Source: Spirochaetales bacterium (GTDB lineage: Bacteria; Spirochaetota; Spirochaetia; Treponematales; UBA12059). From it: a stretch of 64,000 bases of DNA. Made by a program: the position numbers and the translations under genes. Below the pieces are notes generated by a model that saw nothing but the letters and a program-made list of their open reading frames with translations, had not been told where the DNA came from and searched no databases. Shown here in pieces: positions 53,830 to 62,679 of this stretch (its first letter is position 1; each line of letters starts with the position of its first letter). The DNA is taken from positions 1-64,000 of the forward strand of contig JAFGNN010000059.1 in assembly GCA_016926955.1 (NCBI GenBank), given 5' to 3'.

Positions 53830-54774
53830 TCAGTCGGCGCCGGCCTCCAGGCTTGCCAGCAGGGAACGCCACTTGGCCGCCTCGACCGCCTTGCCGAGCT
53901 CGTCGGCGAGCGAGGCCAGCGCCTTCAGGGCCCGTCGCGTGCCATCCCGGTTTTCCGCCGCCAGCCAGACGTCGAAGGCGCGGCGGAAGCGGTCGTACGC
54001 TTCATCCTTTCGCCCGAGCTCCTTCAGGATGGTGCCCGACGCCTCGAGATCCGCGGCGATCCCGGATGAATGCTCTGCCCGCTTGTCGGCCTCGAGCGCC
54101 TTTTCGGCCCAGGCCAGCGCATCCTCGAGCAAGCCTTCCGAACGAGAAAGTCCCGCGAGCGCGTACCAGTTGGCCGCAAGCTCGGTCCAGCGAAGCAGCC
54201 TCTGGTTGATGGACTGGGCGGCCATGAAGTCCGCCCGGGCATCGCTCCCCTGCCCCAGCGCGCGCAGGACCACGGCCCGGTCGTGGAGGACGATGGCGCG
54301 AACGGCATCGTCGCGGGCGGACAGGGGCACGGCTTCCTGGAACAGGGCCAGGGCAGCCTCCGCCTCGCCCGACAGCCACCGGACCTCGCCCAGGTTCGCG
54401 AGCGCGAGAGCCCGCTGGGCGTCGGAACCCGCGATGCGCCCGTACTCGAACGCGTCGCGCAGTTCGAGCTCCGCGCGCTCGAGCATGCCGGCGGCGATGT
54501 AGATGCGACCTATCGAGTTGAGGCTCGCCGCGATGCCCTCGACATTGTCCACCGAACGGTTCTCGCGCAGCGCCTGCTCGTGGAACGAAAGCGCGTCCTC
54601 GAGCCGCCCGCTGGCCAGGAAAGAATTGCCGAGCTCGGTGAACTCCGCGGCGCGATTCTTCGCCTCGACCACGATGGTGTTCGTCTTGGGCGCGCTCGAG
54701 CAGGAAGCCAGGGCGAGGACGAGAAGCGGAGCGAGGCGCGCGCCGGCTCGGCGCGATCCGGGTTTCCCGATCAT
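53830..54774 (-). CDS. TPR lipoprotein of the Mla-type operon
   Basis: 314 residues. Lipoprotein signal (LAPLLVLALASCSS, Cys at about 25). Then TPR-like repeats: AEFTELGNSFLASGRLEDALSFHEQALR, IAASLNSIGRIYIAAGMLERAELELRDA, ALALANLGEVRWLSGEAEAALALFQEA and more. Last gene of the operon, ATGA overlap with mlaD. It may tether or organise the transport complex from the outer leaflet side; inference from position. Confidence 0.82.
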   Translation of the reverse strand: MIGKPGSRRAGARLAPLLVLALASCSSAPKTNTIVVEAKNRAAEFTELGNSFLASGRLEDALSFHEQALRENRSVDNVEGIAASLNSIGRIYIAAGMLERAELELRDAFEYGRIAGSDAQRALALANLGEVRWLSGEAEAALALFQEAVPLSARDDAVRAIVLHDRAVVLRALGQGSDARADFMAAQSINQRLLRWTELAANWYALAGLSRSEGLLEDALAWAEKALEADKRAEHSSGIAADLEASGTILKELGRKDEAYDRFRRAFDVWLAAENRDGTRRALKALASLADELGKAVEAAKWRSLLASLEAGAD

Positions 54775-55847
54775 TCGAAGGCTCCTTCGCGCATGCTCGA
54801 GTAGAGCGAATCCTGCTCCTCGCGCTCGGTGATGCCGCCCTTGAGCAGCGGGTTGTTCTTGAGGCCCTCGAGCACGTCCTGCGCCGAGACGAGCGCCGTC
54901 TTCCCTTCCTCGAGCACGACCGCCAGTTTCGGCATCTCTGCCGACAGCGAGGCCGATATCTCCCGTAGCGAGCGCACCGAGCGCTCCGCCTCCAGCAGCA
55001 TGGTCATGACGCGGTTGTAGAGCGCGTCCTTGTCGTCGAGGAAGGTCGCAATGGAACCCTTCGGATCGAGCAGCGTCGTCACGAGGCCGGTCGGATCCGC
55101 GAACGACGCGGACATGGTTTCCAGATTGCCCGCGATTACGTTGGCCGAGTCGAGCAGGGTGACTGCAGAATCCCGGGCCGCGACCACCAACGAATTTATC
55201 TCGTCGAGGGTGGTCGGCAGGCGCGCGACCGCGGCCGAAGCGTCCGTGATGATGTCGCCGAGCGGACCCTCGCTCTGCCCCGCCAAGGCGCGGTTCAGTT
55301 CGGTAAGCGTCCGGTTGAGCGTGGTCACGGTCTTCGAGGTCGACTCGAGCAGGGGGTTCACGTTGGAGAGGAGCCGCGTGATCGTGTCGTCCTTGGGCGG
55401 AATGTCCACCAGCTCCAGCTCGATGAGATCCTGGCCTTCGGCCGAATCGGCGGTCGGCACGTAGGACTCCTCGGGCAACGGCTCGAGGCTCCGGCCGGCG
55501 TGCAGGAGCAGCTGGCTGCCGAGCCCGATCGGCGAGGTCACCAGCTCGAGGAGCGAGTGCGTCCGCATGAGGTGGTAGTAGGAGTCTTGGATCGAGAACT
55601 CGGCGTCCACCGACCCGGCCTCGTTCAGCGAGACCCTCCGTATGGTGCCGACCTGGAAACCCTTGTGGAAGATGGCGGTGCCCGGTTGCACGGAGCCCGC
55701 GGTCGGGAACTGGGCGAAGTAGGTGTAGTTCTTCGCGAACCAGCGCTGGTTCGCGCCCATGAGTATGATGACGCCCACCAGCAGGACAAAGGCCAGCAGG
55801 GTGAAGACCCCGACGATCCGGTCGGCGTGCCGCATCCTGAATTTCAT
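54771..55847 (-). CDS. mlaD: MlaD/MCE-domain lipid-transport protein
   Basis: 358 residues. N-terminal membrane anchor (DRIVGVFTLLAFVLLVGVIILMGANQRW), then an MCE domain: YFAQFPTAGSVQPGTAIFHKGFQVGTIRRVSLNE and SLLELVTSPIGLGSQLLLHAG. The rest is a long helical region (about 150-350) typical of MCE proteins that form a tunnel or needle. Binds and passes phospholipid in the periplasm. ATGA overlap with mlaF. Confidence 0.93.
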   Translation of the reverse strand: MKFRMRHADRIVGVFTLLAFVLLVGVIILMGANQRWFAKNYTYFAQFPTAGSVQPGTAIFHKGFQVGTIRRVSLNEAGSVDAEFSIQDSYYHLMRTHSLLELVTSPIGLGSQLLLHAGRSLEPLPEESYVPTADSAEGQDLIELELVDIPPKDDTITRLLSNVNPLLESTSKTVTTLNRTLTELNRALAGQSEGPLGDIITDASAAVARLPTTLDEINSLVVAARDSAVTLLDSANVIAGNLETMSASFADPTGLVTTLLDPKGSIATFLDDKDALYNRVMTMLLEAERSVRSLREISASLSAEMPKLAVVLEEGKTALVSAQDVLEGLKNNPLLKGGITEREEQDSLYSSMREGAFE

Positions 55848-56647
55848 CGTCTCTCCTCGATTTCGTCGAGCCGGTCACGCTCGGCGTAACGCTTGAGGCG
55901 GGCGACCACCGATCGCGCCGCGGGCTCGAGACCTTCCGCCGCCAGCGCGACTTTCATCGGCACGTCGTAGGTCACGCGCCCGTTCGCCACGACCACCAGC
56001 CTCAGCGCGAAGCGTCGCACGAACCCCGAGTTGTTGGTAACCGCCACGATCGTCGTGCCCTTGCGCACGAGCTTGTCGACGACGGCGTAAAGCCGGTCGC
56101 GCGCGTCCTCGTCCAAGTGCCCCGTCGGGTCATCCAGGAATACGAGCTCCGGCTCGAGCACGATGGCCCGCGCGATCGAGACGATCTTGCGCTCGCCCAT
56201 CGACAGCGTGGCTGGCCGGACTCCGAGGGAATCGGTGAAGCCGAGGCTCGAGAGCAGCGCGCGCGATCGTTCGGCGATTTCCGGTTCGGAAAGTTCCGGC
56301 CGATGGATGCGCAACGGAAGAGCCAGGTTGTTGAGCACGGTCTGGTTCTCCCAGAGCGCGCCGTCCTGGAAGCCGAAACCGGCCCGCTTCCGGAAGTCCA
56401 GCTCCTCCCGCTGCCCGAGCGTCGCGATGTCCCTGCCGTCGAAAAAGGCATGCCCCGATCCCGCGGGTTCGAGGCCGGCCGCCACCTTGAGCAGGGTGCT
56501 CTTGCCCGAGCCGGAAGGTCCCATGACAGCCACCCGGTCGCCGCGCTCGACCGTCATCGAGACGTCCTCGAGGATCTCGGAGCCGCCGCTGGAGGCGCTG
56601 ATGCCGCGGAGCTCCAGCAAAAGGGCGGATGCATTTTCAGCGCTCAT
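55844..56647 (-). CDS. mlaF: MlaF-type lipid-transport ATPase
   Basis: 267 residues. ABC ATPase: Walker A GPSGSGKST, Q-loop FGFQDGALWENQTV, signature LSMGERKIVSIARAI (variant of LSGGQ), Walker B ELVFLDDPTGHLD (the usual Glu after LLDD is replaced by Asp in LDDP, as is normal for MlaF). Powers lipid transfer through MlaE. ATGA overlaps on both sides. Confidence 0.92.
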   Translation of the reverse strand: MSAENASALLLELRGISASSGGSEILEDVSMTVERGDRVAVMGPSGSGKSTLLKVAAGLEPAGSGHAFFDGRDIATLGQREELDFRKRAGFGFQDGALWENQTVLNNLALPLRIHRPELSEPEIAERSRALLSSLGFTDSLGVRPATLSMGERKIVSIARAIVLEPELVFLDDPTGHLDEDARDRLYAVVDKLVRKGTTIVAVTNNSGFVRRFALRLVVVANGRVTYDVPMKVALAAEGLEPAARSVVARLKRYAERDRLDEIEERR

Positions 56648-57420
56648 GCGTACTGCGCCAGGGTAATGAGGACATCCGCGAAGATGCAGAGTACGAAGCT
56701 CTGCCCGACGGCCTTGATGCCCGCCACGGGGATCTCGGTGCTGGCTCGTCCGATGGCGAAGCCCTGGTAGCTCGCGACCGTGGAGATGATCACGCCGAAC
56801 ACCAGACTCTTGGCCATGCCGGAGAGGATGTCGCCCGGGGCGAGCGCCGCGAGCAGCGACTGGAAGTACTCGGCGAAGGCGATGGGCTTGATCAGCTGCA
56901 CCACCAGGAAGGATCCGAGCAGGCCGAAAAGGTTGAAGTAGATCGAAAGGAGGGCCAGCGAGGCGACCATGCCGATCACCCGGGGCACCACGAGAAAGGA
57001 GACGGGGTCGACGCCGACGGAGATGTAGGCCTCGATCTCGTGGCCTACGACCATTCCCGCCAGCTCGGTCGCGATGGCGGTTCCCGAGCGGGCTATCACG
57101 ATGAAGGCAGTGAGCAGGGGACCGAGCTCCTTGGTGATGACGATGACCATGATGTCGTACATGAGCCGCGACTGCCCGAACTGCGGCAGGAGCGAGGACC
57201 CGATGACGATGATGGCGGCGCCGATGGCCATGGCCATGACGGCGTTGACCAGCAGGGCCTCCACGCCCGTGAAGAGTATCTGGAAGACCAGCACTTTGTA
57301 GCCGACCTGCCGCCTGCGGAAGAACCGCAGGGAACGGTCGACGACCCGGCCGAAGAAGGCGAGCGCGTAGAGGAATCTCGAAGCCTTGTCGCGGACTGAA
57401 GCGCCGATGCTTTCGATCAT
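56644..57420 (-). CDS. mlaE: MlaE-type lipid-transport permease
   Basis: 258 residues with about five membrane segments. Family stretches: GYKVLVFQILFTGVEALLVNAVMAMAIGAAIIV, MYDIMVIVITKELGPLLTAFIVIARSGTAIATELA (the most conserved), VVPRVIGMVASLALLSIYF and a C-terminal KSLVFGVIISTVASYQGF. Core of the complex in the inner membrane. ATGA overlap with the upstream hypothetical gene. Confidence 0.93.
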   Translation of the reverse strand: MIESIGASVRDKASRFLYALAFFGRVVDRSLRFFRRRQVGYKVLVFQILFTGVEALLVNAVMAMAIGAAIIVIGSSLLPQFGQSRLMYDIMVIVITKELGPLLTAFIVIARSGTAIATELAGMVVGHEIEAYISVGVDPVSFLVVPRVIGMVASLALLSIYFNLFGLLGSFLVVQLIKPIAFAEYFQSLLAALAPGDILSGMAKSLVFGVIISTVASYQGFAIGRASTEIPVAGIKAVGQSFVLCIFADVLITLAQYA

Positions 57421-58049
57421 GTCGGGGGCTGCCTTGTTGCAGTATCGTGCGGAATCGGGCCGCGCGCAACGTCGGCCTCGCCTCCCTCGTTCCATCGGCG
57501 GAGGACGGCGTCGAGGCGCGTGAACATGATGCCGGCTCGCCGGGCATTCGCCGCCCGCCGGGGAACTTCGTATTCCTCCCCGGCCAACCAGCGCTTCCAG
57601 CGGCCCGGTACCAGCCCTCCGGGCGCCGCCGCGCGGTGCAGGGCGCGCTCGAAATCGTTGAAGGTGGCGAAGCGCGAAAGCTCCCCGGTCCCCGCTGCGG
57701 CGTCGCAGGCTTCGCGGACCAGTGCGTCGCGGGCGAAGCGCGCGAGGTCGAGCTCCGCCCGGCACCACAGCACGAGCGGGACCGCGTCCGAACGCGCGCG
57801 CTCGCGGAGCGCATCCGGCATGCGAGCCAGTTCCCCGTCCATGCGCGCGAGCGTCGCCGAGAGCGCTTCGACTGGGTCCCAGGCGAACCCCCCGAAGGCG
57901 AAGGGCTCGAGCAGGCGGCTTTCGAGAACGGTCCGGGACGAAGCGCCGTCGACGGAGCCTCGCTCCCGCGCGTCGGGCGGGATTTCCAGGTGGATGTCGC
58001 CGGAAGCTCCAAGTCGCAGCGCAAAGCCCGGCGTCCGGGCGGATTTCAT
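57417..58049 (-). CDS. Unknown soluble protein inside the Mla-type operon
   Basis: 210 residues, helical, no signal or membrane segment. Arg- and Ala-rich; stretches such as EALSATLARMDGELARMPDALRERARSDAV and ELSRFATFNDFERALHRAAAPGGLVPGRWKRWLAGEEYEVP. I do not recognise it. ATGA overlaps with both neighbours show that it is translated as part of the operon, so a role in lipid transport or its control is likely. Confidence 0.65.
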   Translation of the reverse strand: MKSARTPGFALRLGASGDIHLEIPPDARERGSVDGASSRTVLESRLLEPFAFGGFAWDPVEALSATLARMDGELARMPDALRERARSDAVPLVLWCRAELDLARFARDALVREACDAAAGTGELSRFATFNDFERALHRAAAPGGLVPGRWKRWLAGEEYEVPRRAANARRAGIMFTRLDAVLRRWNEGGEADVARGPIPHDTATRQPPT

Positions 58050-60169
58050 CGGCCCCGTCCCCCGTCCGTCCCGGCAGGGCCGGAGGGGAGGACGAGCGCT
58101 TCCTCCTCGTCGACCGTATCGGAAAGGATGCGCGTGAGCACTTCGCGGGTTATCGCGTAGAGCGGGGGAAGTCCTTCGATCGGCCCCATGCGCGCCGCCA
58201 GCGTTGAGGCGCGGTCAAGGGGCGCGTCCGACACGTAGTAGTAGAACCGTTGCGCCACATCCTGCCTGAGGACGCCGAGCTGGGCGCCCTCGGTCAGCGC
58301 CCGGAGATACCAGATGCCCTCCATCTCCAAGCCTACGCATTCCCAAAGGCGGCGGTAGAAGTTCAGCATCATGCGGTTCTGCAGCAGCGTACCCGCCACC
58401 GTGAGCAGCGGGCCCGTCACGACCCGACGCCCCGGAAGCGCCTTCCGGAGCGCCGCGGCGGAGTTCGAAGGGTCCCACGCTACGGGCATGAAAGCGTCGC
58501 CCCGCTGCTCGACGAAGGCGGTCGGCAAAACGACGTCGCCCCGACCCGCGGCGAGACCGCCGGCCTTGCCGAGCACGTTGACGCTGCGTACATTGCGACC
58601 GAAAAGCATGAGGAGGTTCTTCATGATCTCCTCGGCTTGCTCGCCGAAGGCGTAATCGACGTTGACGACGACTCGACGGATCTTTCCCTCCGCCCCGCGA
58701 CGGATCAGCGGGTCGATCGCGGCGCCCCTCAGCCTCTCCAGATCGATGATCTGCGCCTGGATGCCCGTGGTAACCGATTCGCTCGCGCGCTCGATGCCGT
58801 AGCGGGCCTCGAAGCTCGCGAGGTCCGCGAGCGCGTCCGGCCCGGTTTCGAACCAGCGCCGCGCCAGGTGGTATATCTCGTCATCGGACGAGTCCCAGCC
58901 ACCGATCCTCAATCCCGCTCCGTCGGCCCAGGCCAGGATCTCGTCGCGGCGTTCGCGGAAATAGGGATTGAGGCAGTTCGAGACGGAATGGGTGTTGGAA
59001 CTGACGATGTGGACTTCCCAGTCCTCCGGGAAGTCGGCGGGCGGAACGCCGAGCAGCTTGGCCGCGGCGGCGCCGATCCGGGCGGTCCACAACTCCGAAA
59101 GCCTCCCGTTGTAGTTGTTGACCTGCTTCCGCACGTCCACCGAATAGACTTGCCGGTGGAAAGCGAGCTCCCGGATACGGTCCACCGTATCCACCGGCCA
59201 GATGGATACGAGCTTCCGCCGCTCGTCGCCGTCGAAAGGCAGGCGGGCCAGAAAGGCCTCGTCGTCCCCGCCCGCCGCGCCTTTGCTCCCGGCGTGGTTC
59301 GCGAGCGCCAGGATCAGGTCGGGATGGTTGAGGCGGTACCGGATTTTCCTGGTCTCGACCGCGTAGAGGCAGAGGCAGGTGACGAAATCGAGCAGGTCGG
59401 ACAAACCGGTGCGAACCAGGGCCATGTCCTTGCCGCCGAGCATCTCATAGACGAAGCGGCGGCGCGCCTCGGTCGGAACAGCCGGAAAGAGCAGCTCCGG
59501 GCTCGCGTAGACGACGGGCAGATTGTCCGTCAGCAGGAACAGGAAGGTTCTCGAGACGTTCTCCGGCAGGCGGCGCGCCGCGTAGAGCAGGGCGTCCCAG
59601 TCTATGAGCGATTCGTCGCCGGCGTGCGCGTGGATGGCCGGTTCGAGCTTCTTGTAAAGCTCCATGAAACGGCGGATCTCGATATGTCCGAGCCCCGCCG
59701 CCCGCTGGATCTCGGCGAGGAAATGGTCGAAGGCGTCGAAGATGCCCTGCCCGTCCCTCAGTTTCGCGCCGAGGGACTGGGCGAAAGCGCGGGATCCCGA
59801 TACGAGCGCGAGGAAGCGCTCCCCTCCGAGGGCCAGGCAGGCGGAAGGCTCGAGCGCCCGGGCGGTCCACTTTCTCGGCAGGTCGAAAATCGATGAGCGC
59901 TCGCCGAACAGCGAGCCCGGCTCGATGACGTTTACGCGGAAAGGCGGCGAACGGCCGGTGTCGAGCGACTCCATCGAGCCCTCGAGCAGCACGTAGGCTT
60001 CGTTCCCGTCCTTCCCGAGGCGGAAAAGATCCTGCCCGGCCTCGAGCCTCACCAGCGGGGCTTCGGCCGCCAAGGCCTTCCGCTCCGGGCTCGGCAGGAA
60101 GCGGAAGGGGACCGCCTCGCCGAGGCGGCGCTCCGCGAGCGCCCGAAGCTCATCATCCGTCAAGTTCAT
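58046..60169 (-). CDS. cNMP-binding protein with nucleoside-phosphorylase-like C-terminal domain
   Basis: 707 residues from ATG 60169 behind GGAGGGGCGAA. Residues about 15-130: cyclic-nucleotide-binding domain (FLPSPERKALAAEAPLVRLEAGQDLFRLG, AYVLLEGSMESL, IEPGSLFGERSSIFDLPRKWTARALEPSACLAL). Residues 150-470: helical, with NNYNGRLSELWTARIG and IVSSNTHSVSNCLNPYFRE. Residues about 500-690: VVVNVDYAFGEQAEEIMKNLLMLFGRNVRSVNVLGKAGGLAAGRGDVVLPTAF and GLEMEGIWYL, resembling AMP nucleosidase or purine phosphorylase. First gene of the Mla-type operon. Phosphorylase activity is inferred from the fold, not proven. Confidence 0.78.
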   Translation of the reverse strand: MNLTDDELRALAERRLGEAVPFRFLPSPERKALAAEAPLVRLEAGQDLFRLGKDGNEAYVLLEGSMESLDTGRSPPFRVNVIEPGSLFGERSSIFDLPRKWTARALEPSACLALGGERFLALVSGSRAFAQSLGAKLRDGQGIFDAFDHFLAEIQRAAGLGHIEIRRFMELYKKLEPAIHAHAGDESLIDWDALLYAARRLPENVSRTFLFLLTDNLPVVYASPELLFPAVPTEARRRFVYEMLGGKDMALVRTGLSDLLDFVTCLCLYAVETRKIRYRLNHPDLILALANHAGSKGAAGGDDEAFLARLPFDGDERRKLVSIWPVDTVDRIRELAFHRQVYSVDVRKQVNNYNGRLSELWTARIGAAAAKLLGVPPADFPEDWEVHIVSSNTHSVSNCLNPYFRERRDEILAWADGAGLRIGGWDSSDDEIYHLARRWFETGPDALADLASFEARYGIERASESVTTGIQAQIIDLERLRGAAIDPLIRRGAEGKIRRVVVNVDYAFGEQAEEIMKNLLMLFGRNVRSVNVLGKAGGLAAGRGDVVLPTAFVEQRGDAFMPVAWDPSNSAAALRKALPGRRVVTGPLLTVAGTLLQNRMMLNFYRRLWECVGLEMEGIWYLRALTEGAQLGVLRQDVAQRFYYYVSDAPLDRASTLAARMGPIEGLPPLYAITREVLTRILSDTVDEEEALVLPSGPAGTDGGRGR

Positions 60170-60267: not shown

Positions 60268-60361
60268 GTAGCCTCGGCGGGCGAAATGCGCGCAAGGATC
60301 CGGGAAGGCAAAACGCACCCCTGAACCCGCGATGAAGAGACGCCCGCGCGGAGGTTGGGAC

Positions 60362-60982
60362 ATGGCAAGAACACCGGCCGATCGGGGCGCGGGGTCATCG
60401 GAGGCGAGGCTCGAAAGCCTGCGCGACAGGGTCATGGAGACGCTGACCGGCGCCTTCTCCACGAACGGGCTGGACATGGACGAATACGAACGCCGGGCCG
60501 GACTCGCGCAGGCCGCGGAAAGCGACGCAGAGCTCGAAGCGCTCGTGCTCGATCTGCCCGCGGATGCTCCGTCCGGCAGGGCGCCCGCCACCCGCGCCGC
60601 CGCGGCCCCCGGCTACCTTCGCGCGTCGGCGCCGCTCGAATCGGGCTCGCGCTCGGTCGCCTGCGTCATGAGCGACCGGCGCATGACCGGCGACTGGCTG
60701 CATTCCGACAAGGTGGACACCTTCACCCTGATGGGATCGACCGTCCTGGACCTCCGCGAGGTCGAGTTGCCGCCCGGTCCCGTTCGCATCGACGCCTTCG
60801 TGCTCATGGGAGAGGCCCAGATCATCGTCCCTCCCGACCTGCCCGTGCGCATGGACGCTTTCGCCTTCATGGGCGAGGCCGCGGCGCGCCGGGGTGTCTC
60901 GCAGAGCGTCAGGAACGCCCGCACCTGGGTCGAGGTCGGAGGCTTTGTCCTGATGGGTTCGATAGAGGTTAAGGCCAAATAA
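60362..60982 (+). CDS. LiaF-like cell-envelope stress protein
   Basis: 206 residues from ATG 60362, with GGAGG 7 nt upstream. N-terminal DUF1707-like helical part (ETLTGAFSTNGLDMDEYERRAGLAQAAESDAELEALVLDLP), then the LiaF-type C-terminal repeat of beta strands: VDTFTLMGSTVLDLREVELPPGPVRIDAFVLMGEAQIIVPPDLPVRMDAFAFMGEA. These proteins sense or damp envelope stress in Gram-positives; in spirochaetes the partner is unknown. No membrane segment. Confidence 0.83.
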   Translation: MARTPADRGAGSSEARLESLRDRVMETLTGAFSTNGLDMDEYERRAGLAQAAESDAELEALVLDLPADAPSGRAPATRAAAAPGYLRASAPLESGSRSVACVMSDRRMTGDWLHSDKVDTFTLMGSTVLDLREVELPPGPVRIDAFVLMGEAQIIVPPDLPVRMDAFAFMGEAAARRGVSQSVRNARTWVEVGGFVLMGSIEVKAK

Positions 60983-61080: not shown

Positions 61081-62541
61081 CTAGAGCTTGTCGATCAACA
61101 TCGAGCACTTGCCCGAAGGGATCGGCAGGGTCTTTTTCTTCTTGTTGAGCACATTGATGGTGAAATAGTAGAGCTTCTCGCTCTCCATGTGGATTTCCCA
61201 GCCCCGCCCGCTCTTGTTCGAGAGGATGGTGACCATGTTGCGCTTGAGCGACATGTTCTCGATGCCCATGATTTCGAGGTTCGGGATGATCCAGTCCACC
61301 GTCTTGCGCGGCAGGCTGATCGACAGGCCGACGATGTTCTCGATCATCAGCGCGATGGTCGACAGGGCGCCGAAGGCCAGGAACTGCGATCGGGGCCACT
61401 CGGGCCTGTCGGGCCATACCGCCTTGCCCTCGTTCTGGGGCTGGTACGCTTCCCAGATGACCTGGCGCTGCTCCCGCTCGGCGCGGTCCCTTTCGCGCTC
61501 GCGTTCGCCGTTCGCGACGTGCATGGTGTCCAGCACGAAGTACAGGTGCCGGATGGCGCATTCGCGAGCCAGCTCCCAGTGGTTGTACTTTTCGAGCCCC
61601 TTGATGACCATATAGGTGAAGGGCGGCAGCACGGAGCCGCGGAAGCCCATGCCGCGCTTGTCGTAGTTCGGATCGTCCGCGGCGAGGGTCGGGAAGGGGT
61701 GCTCCGTTCCGAATGCCTGCGGATCCGTCAGGTGCGCTATCAGCTTCTCCGCGCGGTCTTCATTGGGGATCTCGGCCAGGAGCGGCCAGAACGCGCCGAC
61801 GGTCCTCACGGAGGTCTGACGCTCCGCCTCGTCCAGGTCGAAATAGAAGCCTTTGTCGTGGTTCCACATCATGGAGTTGATGCGGGTTTTCAGGCTGAAG
61901 TACGCGCGCTTGTACTGGAAGCTGGCTTCCTTGTCGTTGAGGATGTCCGCCAGCGCCGACATGTAGAGCGCGTTCGTGGCCATGATCGCGTTGAAGTCCG
62001 CGTAGTAGACGGCCTTGCCGCGCGGCGAATTCGGCATGCCCGTGGCCGCCAGGGGCGCCGCGTAGAGGCCATTTTCCCGCTTCCAGGTCCGCTCAACCCA
62101 TTGATGGTACTTGTGGAGGGCAGGCATGACCTCCTTCACGCGCTTCTTGTTGGCCGACTTGTGGTAAAGGTTGTACTCGGCCCATGCGAACAGGGGCGGG
62201 GCCAGTCCTTCGGGATTGTCCTTGTCGACCACGGGCTCGCCGGTTTCGAGGTCGTATGAGCCCCGGATGGCACCGGATTCCTCCTGCTTGCCGTACAGGG
62301 CGTCGAGCCCGTTCGAGGCCGCGTAGAGCCGGTTCGAGTACACGAGAAAGAACGAGGCGAAAACCTGGTCGATCTGGTCGAGCGTGCGCGAGGGCGGGTA
62401 ATGGAAGAACTTGTCTTTGGGGAATCCCTTCCGGGCGTCGCCGACAGTCCAAAAGTCGGCTATCCACGCCCACGACTTGTCGTAGATGTCCACGAAGTCC
62501 TGGTCGTAGAAATGCACCCGCGGGAAATCGCGTTTGTTCAC
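61081..62541 (-). CDS. Trehalase/GH63-like glycoside hydrolase
   Basis: 486 residues from GTG 62541 behind GAGGAGCCCATC. (alpha/alpha)6-barrel features of the trehalase and GH63 group: SWAWIADFWTVGDARKGFP, DQIDQVFASFFLVYSNRLY, FAWAEYNLYHKSANKKRVKEVMPALHKYHQWVERTWKRENGLY and GFRGSVLPPFTYMVIKGLEKY. Probably cleaves alpha-glucosides; trehalose or isomaltose are candidates. No signal peptide. Its strong promoter suggests regulated high expression. Confidence 0.72.
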   Translation of the reverse strand: MNKRDFPRVHFYDQDFVDIYDKSWAWIADFWTVGDARKGFPKDKFFHYPPSRTLDQIDQVFASFFLVYSNRLYAASNGLDALYGKQEESGAIRGSYDLETGEPVVDKDNPEGLAPPLFAWAEYNLYHKSANKKRVKEVMPALHKYHQWVERTWKRENGLYAAPLAATGMPNSPRGKAVYYADFNAIMATNALYMSALADILNDKEASFQYKRAYFSLKTRINSMMWNHDKGFYFDLDEAERQTSVRTVGAFWPLLAEIPNEDRAEKLIAHLTDPQAFGTEHPFPTLAADDPNYDKRGMGFRGSVLPPFTYMVIKGLEKYNHWELARECAIRHLYFVLDTMHVANGERERERDRAEREQRQVIWEAYQPQNEGKAVWPDRPEWPRSQFLAFGALSTIALMIENIVGLSISLPRKTVDWIIPNLEIMGIENMSLKRNMVTILSNKSGRGWEIHMESEKLYYFTINVLNKKKKTLPIPSGKCSMLIDKL

Positions 62542-62649
62542 GTGATGGGCTCCTCGCTCGTATACGAACCGCACGACCGTCAAGCCGCCGCGGAATCCTG
62601 CACGAAATGACAGATTACTACAGAGAATGGCAATATTGGACAGTTTCAG

Positions 62650-62679
62650 AATATAGTACAGGCTCCGTTCAGTTGTCAA
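62650..62679 (-). promoter_or_regulatory. Near-consensus promoter of the glycoside hydrolase gene
   Basis: On the minus strand: TTGACA (62674-62679), an 18-bp spacer and TATATT (62650-62655). The predicted transcript begins near 62643, giving a leader of about 100 nt. The -35 box is perfect and the surroundings are AT-rich. Confidence 0.78.

Follow-up and report, generated by a model that had tools for sequence, protein, structure and literature searches.

The first gene of an mlaEFD-containing operon in a Spirochaetales bacterium was found to encode, on one chain, a cyclic-nucleotide-binding domain (CNBD), a helical middle part and a C-terminal domain which, by profile comparison, is a divergent, distant relative of the NP-I (nucleoside-phosphorylase-like) superfamily; the last two parts belong to the Pfam family DUF6909. 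The fusion probably represents a novel type of enzyme gated by a signal, and we consider the chances about even that it is a cyclic-nucleotide-gated nucleosidase or phosphorylase which has a core role independent of mla and was captured by the mla operon in one lineage. Cyclic nucleotide binding, catalysis, substrate, gating and any effect on lipids are all predicted properties here; the linkage of DUF6909 to mla genes is real locally, but not general. The features are collected in Table 1, and the window denotes the whole stretch of 64,000 nucleotides that was analyzed.

Table 1. Features of the fusion gene, its operon and the adjoining genes in the window
Feature	Position	Strand	Details
CNBD-DUF6909 fusion gene	58046..60169	(-)	707 aa; operon's first gene
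Cyclic-nucleotide-binding domain (CNBD), aa 40-124	59798..60052	(-)	PF00027; phosphate-binding cassette G89, E90, R100
Helical middle part of DUF6909, aa 145-375	59045..59737	(-)	Secondary structure from low-confidence model
Nucleoside-phosphorylase-like (NP-I) domain, aa 384-690	58100..59020	(-)	GKAG, TVxGTxLQN, EMEG, Y(V/A)SDxP
X210, 210-aa protein	57417..58049	(-)	No Pfam match; homologues in G001, G002, G008
MlaE-like permease	56644..57420	(-)	PF02405, E 4.8e-54
MlaF-like ABC ATPase	55844..56647	(-)	PF00005, E 6e-29; ATG at 56647
MlaD-like MCE protein	54771..55847	(-)	PF02470, E 2.9e-10
TPR protein, lipoprotein-like signal	53830..54774	(-)	TPR families; ATG at 54774; operon's last gene
DUF1707 + LiaF-like C-terminal protein	60332..60982	(+)	PF08044, PF09922; divergent neighbour
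MGH1-like/trehalase-like glycoside hydrolase gene	61081-62679	(-)	Syntenic in relatives

The first-pass annotation had read the chain as a cyclic nucleotide sensor followed by a helical middle and a nucleoside-phosphorylase-like end, and this reading was supported by Pfam profiles, hhalign, Foldseek and VIA-align. In the Pfam search, both the CNBD (E 2e-12; 47.3 bits, over the cut-off of 27.5) and DUF6909 (PF21850, aa 165-683; E 2.8e-114; 382.8 bits, over the cut-off of 27) were matched, the window protein being a full-length member of the latter family; the fusion to a CNBD was seen here only in spirochaetes. A literature search found no paper naming DUF6909, and no relative was found when viral contigs were scanned; the nearest named relatives were Spirochaetes MAGs. 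Within the C-terminal domain, in which GKAGG and EMEG were located at aa 534 and aa 615, respectively, a match to PNP_UDP_1 (PF01048, aa 515-618; E 1.3e-4) reached 21.9 bits, under the cut-off of 25.1. Matches to the same profile were obtained for 6 of 14 homologues, with a best E of 2e-6.

Using hhalign, 22 DUF6909 C-termini were compared with spirochaete NP-I sequences, giving a match with a probability of 94% (E 8e-8, score 60); the best score among 20 column-shuffled control profiles run against the same target was about 20. An alignment with E. coli AMP nucleosidase (Amn) and spirochaete Amn-like sequences spanned the GG...GD, TV loop, EME and SDxPL elements, and M616, E617 and D648 of the fusion aligned with M404, E405 and D428 of AMP nucleosidase, residues that interact with base and sugar and are common to more distant homologues (PMC9584410). 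The Met-Glu...Asp triad, with Met-Glu serving the ribose and Asp the base in NP-I enzymes, was invariant in 22/22 aligned sequences, which fits catalysis. The fusion resembles Amn (E. coli 1T8S, K. pneumoniae KpAmn) in its collinear GG...GD, G..TV/TT, (E/D)ME and SDxPL motifs, in the triad, and in having an accessory N-terminal domain ahead of the putative catalytic domain, but differs in its middle domain, in the CNBD in front, and in the family-specific GKAG and TVxGTxLQN. The AMP nucleosidase equivalog TIGR01717 had no match in the fusion and none elsewhere in the host genome.

For the putative NP-I fold of the C-terminal domain, AlphaFold modelling of aa 352-690, based on four sequences only, gave a weak model (pLDDT 66, pTM 0.70). 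With this model, the 50 PDB matches listed by Foldseek (including Amn 1T8S) were all NP-I, with probabilities of 0.89-0.99 but TM scores of 0.2-0.36, and NP-I enzymes also filled all 50 rows listed by VIA-align (best Z 7.3, 171 residues aligned, rmsd 4.9), although the absence of other folds among the matches listed is not evidence against those folds. Nothing credible was found when the C-terminal alignment profile was compared with PDB sequences. In place of the phosphate-site and base-stacking motifs found in known NP-I enzymes, DUF6909 has the family-specific SSNxHS, GKAG and TVxGTxLQN, which we infer to be equivalent to the known NP-I loops, and because of this replacement the NP-I-like site of the fusion could be a sensor only. 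In the middle part of DUF6909, an RLP motif and the residues R236, R238, D261, E272 and K275 were invariant. No relative of known function was found for this part, nor any similarity to the N-terminal domain of Amn, and the full-length model from which its secondary structure was taken was built from five sequences (pLDDT 45).

At the other end of the chain, the CNBD matched PKA and PKG chains with phmmer E values down to 3.5e-12, and the spacing of G89/E90/R100 was the same as that of the conserved Gly/Glu/Arg in the CNBD of PycTIR (G86/E87/R97) (PMC11224242). When the CNBDs of the family were aligned, Gly and Glu were kept in all and Arg in all but two (G008 and G146), and the ligand residues are, in other words, mostly kept across the class. 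From its sequence, the CNBD of the fusion is predicted to bind a cyclic nucleotide. DUF6909 was present in 26/393 sampled genomes of the phylum, 17 of these 26 being in the window's class, and a CNBD was seen in all class copies except that of G364 and a contig-edge copy in G323. DUF6909 without a CNBD was found in another class of the phylum (f39) and in Persicobacter (Bacteroidota). In the tree, the CNBD-less rows fell on one side of a branch, with long branches making the placement uncertain. These CNBD-less copies, together with active-site motifs that are the same in the aligned spirochaete copies, would suit a constitutive nucleotide-salvage enzyme whose CNBD is degenerate or structural; the retention of the ligand residues across the class argues against this, and we regard it as quite unlikely.

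The host genome contained 14 class III cyclase domains, and class III cyclases were found in 14/15 DUF6909 genomes searched. The exception, G364, carried the sole full-length homologue of the class without a CNBD (L042:8242-9882) and also had no MlaE. This joint loss of CNBD and cyclase can be taken only as a hint, since it is a single case on a very long branch and genomes of the other class combine cyclases with CNBD-less DUF6909. In G231, a gene for a CHASE2-class III cyclase lay directly before a CNBD-less DUF6909 gene (L063:9827-12433), and the layout in G236 was the same. The pairing, found in one genus, was counted as possible support for a link between cyclases and DUF6909.

ATP nucleosidases of the NP-I type occur as effectors in defence systems (Detocs/CBASS), and this counts for a further reading, a Pycsar-like immune effector in which phage infection would raise a cyclic nucleotide, the CNBD would bind it, and the NP-I domain would destroy purine nucleotides and arrest the cell. 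Like PycTIR, which joins a CNBD to an NADase (PMC11224242), the fusion has an N-terminal CNBD with the Gly/Glu/Arg cassette and a C-terminal domain from a nucleotide-acting family, and PADLOC returned a weak match (E 0.0032) to the model of a TIR effector. However, this match spans the CNBD only, and the fusion differs from PycTIR in that its C-terminal domain is NP-I-like rather than TIR, it has no adjacent cyclase partner such as the pyrimidine cyclase of Pycsar (no PF00211 cyclase was found on the window's contig) and its context is not one of defence. In several other families, CNBD-DUF6909 was found near housekeeping genes such as pheS/pheT, and near a HAD phosphatase and a 'PYPGP' protein with no Pfam match (e.g., L046:6691-14590), and the DUF6909 tree showed lineage-wise conservation. 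An immune role therefore seems very improbable.

As the first-pass annotation had proposed, the fusion, X210, MlaE, MlaF, MlaD and the TPR protein are encoded by six genes that follow each other with 4-bp overlaps, and all five junctions were ATGA (starts at 58049, 57420, 56647, 55847 and 54774). MlaE, the ABC ATPase and MlaD were all recognized by Pfam in this operon. With the NCBIfam equivalogs for MlaE and MlaD, the window proteins scored under the curated cut-offs, and we therefore refer to an Mla-like MCE system. The adjacent MlaE, ABC ATPase and MlaD-like genes resemble those of the MlaFEDB transporter, but the operon has neither MlaB nor MlaC, contains X210 and the TPR protein, and opens with a fusion gene that known Mla systems do not include. 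The divergent promoter region showed neither a sigma-70-like site nor a trustworthy conserved operator.

The window operon was common to five relatives, and DUF6909 was located directly upstream of X210-mlaE or mlaE in G000, G001, G002, G008, G041 and G056. Adjacency on the same strand was thus seen in 6/8 DUF6909-bearing genomes of the order sample. Absence of linkage to mla in relatives, which the first-pass annotation had named as grounds for rejecting its idea, was seen for two loci inside the order and for all loci read outside it, where no DUF6909 was found beside mla in the stretches read (some of them short). In G005, DUF6909 and mla were on different contigs, with a DUF92 gene directly downstream of DUF6909, and in G025 DUF6909 was present while MlaD and MlaE were not detected. 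In G041, the mla-linked DUF6909 was in two overlapping reading frames (L057:7163-9177), reflecting a frameshift or an assembly error.

This linkage led us to consider first that the fusion is a dedicated regulator of the Mla-like transporter, which would sense a cyclic nucleotide and, through a non-catalytic NP-I pocket, a purine nucleotide as well, and would set the activity or expression of MlaFED. The six same-strand adjacencies point in this direction, as do the 4-bp overlaps, present in the window and between DUF6909 and mlaE in G056. So may a HisKA_2 histidine kinase gene in G023, from another family of the order, which stands first in the mla operon (L115:4545-5750) with a 4-bp overlap into mlaE, as though the leading position were one for signalling genes. 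The distribution of the genes, however, caused this reading to be demoted. MlaD was found in 36/59 genomes of the order sample, only seven of which had DUF6909 (missing from 29/36), and conversely no MlaE was found in four of the DUF6909 genomes in which it was looked for (G025, G244 [one contig], G292 and G364). G011, of the same family as the window, is the cleanest comparison for mla without DUF6909, as its glycoside hydrolase gene, liaF-like gene and mlaEFD-TPR genes are arranged as in the window while DUF6909 is absent. In 14 further mla regions, all without DUF6909, mlaEFD formed a self-standing cassette, mostly with a TPR gene. X210, by comparison, goes with mla, since its homologues preceded mlaE in two of these regions (G005 and G020), where the mla operons have no adjacent DUF6909. 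With the invariant triad residues also fitting catalysis, we consider a dedicated Mla regulator unlikely. The setting of lipid traffic by a cyclic nucleotide or a product of its breakdown, as suggested earlier, was not upheld as a general function, given that most relatives with mla have no DUF6909 and that DUF6909 persists without mla. Because relatives carry CNBD-DUF6909 and mla separately, control of lipids is unlikely to be the general job of the fusion, and its association with lipid transport is best interpreted as co-expression specific to one lineage.

The preferred reading is the gated nucleosidase or phosphorylase, and the anatomy of the protein, a sensor and a helical middle joined to an NP-I domain that retains its substrate residues, fits a ligand-gated enzyme. 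The ligand of the CNBD would be cAMP or cGMP, supplied by one of the class III cyclases of the cell. Its binding would rearrange the helical middle domain, and this rearrangement would switch the C-terminal NP-I domain, which would cleave a purine nucleotide or nucleoside at its N-glycosidic bond, an activity closest to that of AMP nucleosidase. The core role, in signalling by nucleotides or in their homeostasis, would not depend on Mla. In one spirochaete order, the gene would then have become the first cistron of the mlaEFD-TPR operon, and in this mla-linked lineage the level of the fusion may be tied to envelope lipid transport. Stated in full, the proposal is a new class of cyclic-nucleotide effector, a purine N-glycosidase which is gated by cAMP or cGMP, connects the level of a second messenger with the purine nucleotide pool and in one lineage is wired to outer-membrane lipid transport; in this form it is rather less likely than not. 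Functions outside the four readings weighed here take the remaining probability.

Most cyclic-nucleotide receptors known from bacteria are transcription factors, channels, acetyltransferases or Pycsar effectors. If the preferred reading is true, an enzyme that splits nucleotides and is controlled by a cyclic nucleotide would be a new output. It would matter in this class, which carries many class III cyclases with largely unknown targets, and DUF6909 would gain its first testable function.

Beyond mla, the DUF1707/LiaF-like gene adjoined DUF6909 in the window's family and also in the distant G176, G244 and G292, which have no adjacent mla; the association of this gene with DUF6909 is wider than that of mla. 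Finally, in G242, a CNBD-less DUF6909 gene was followed by an SCP2 sterol-carrier gene (L060:6232-6672).
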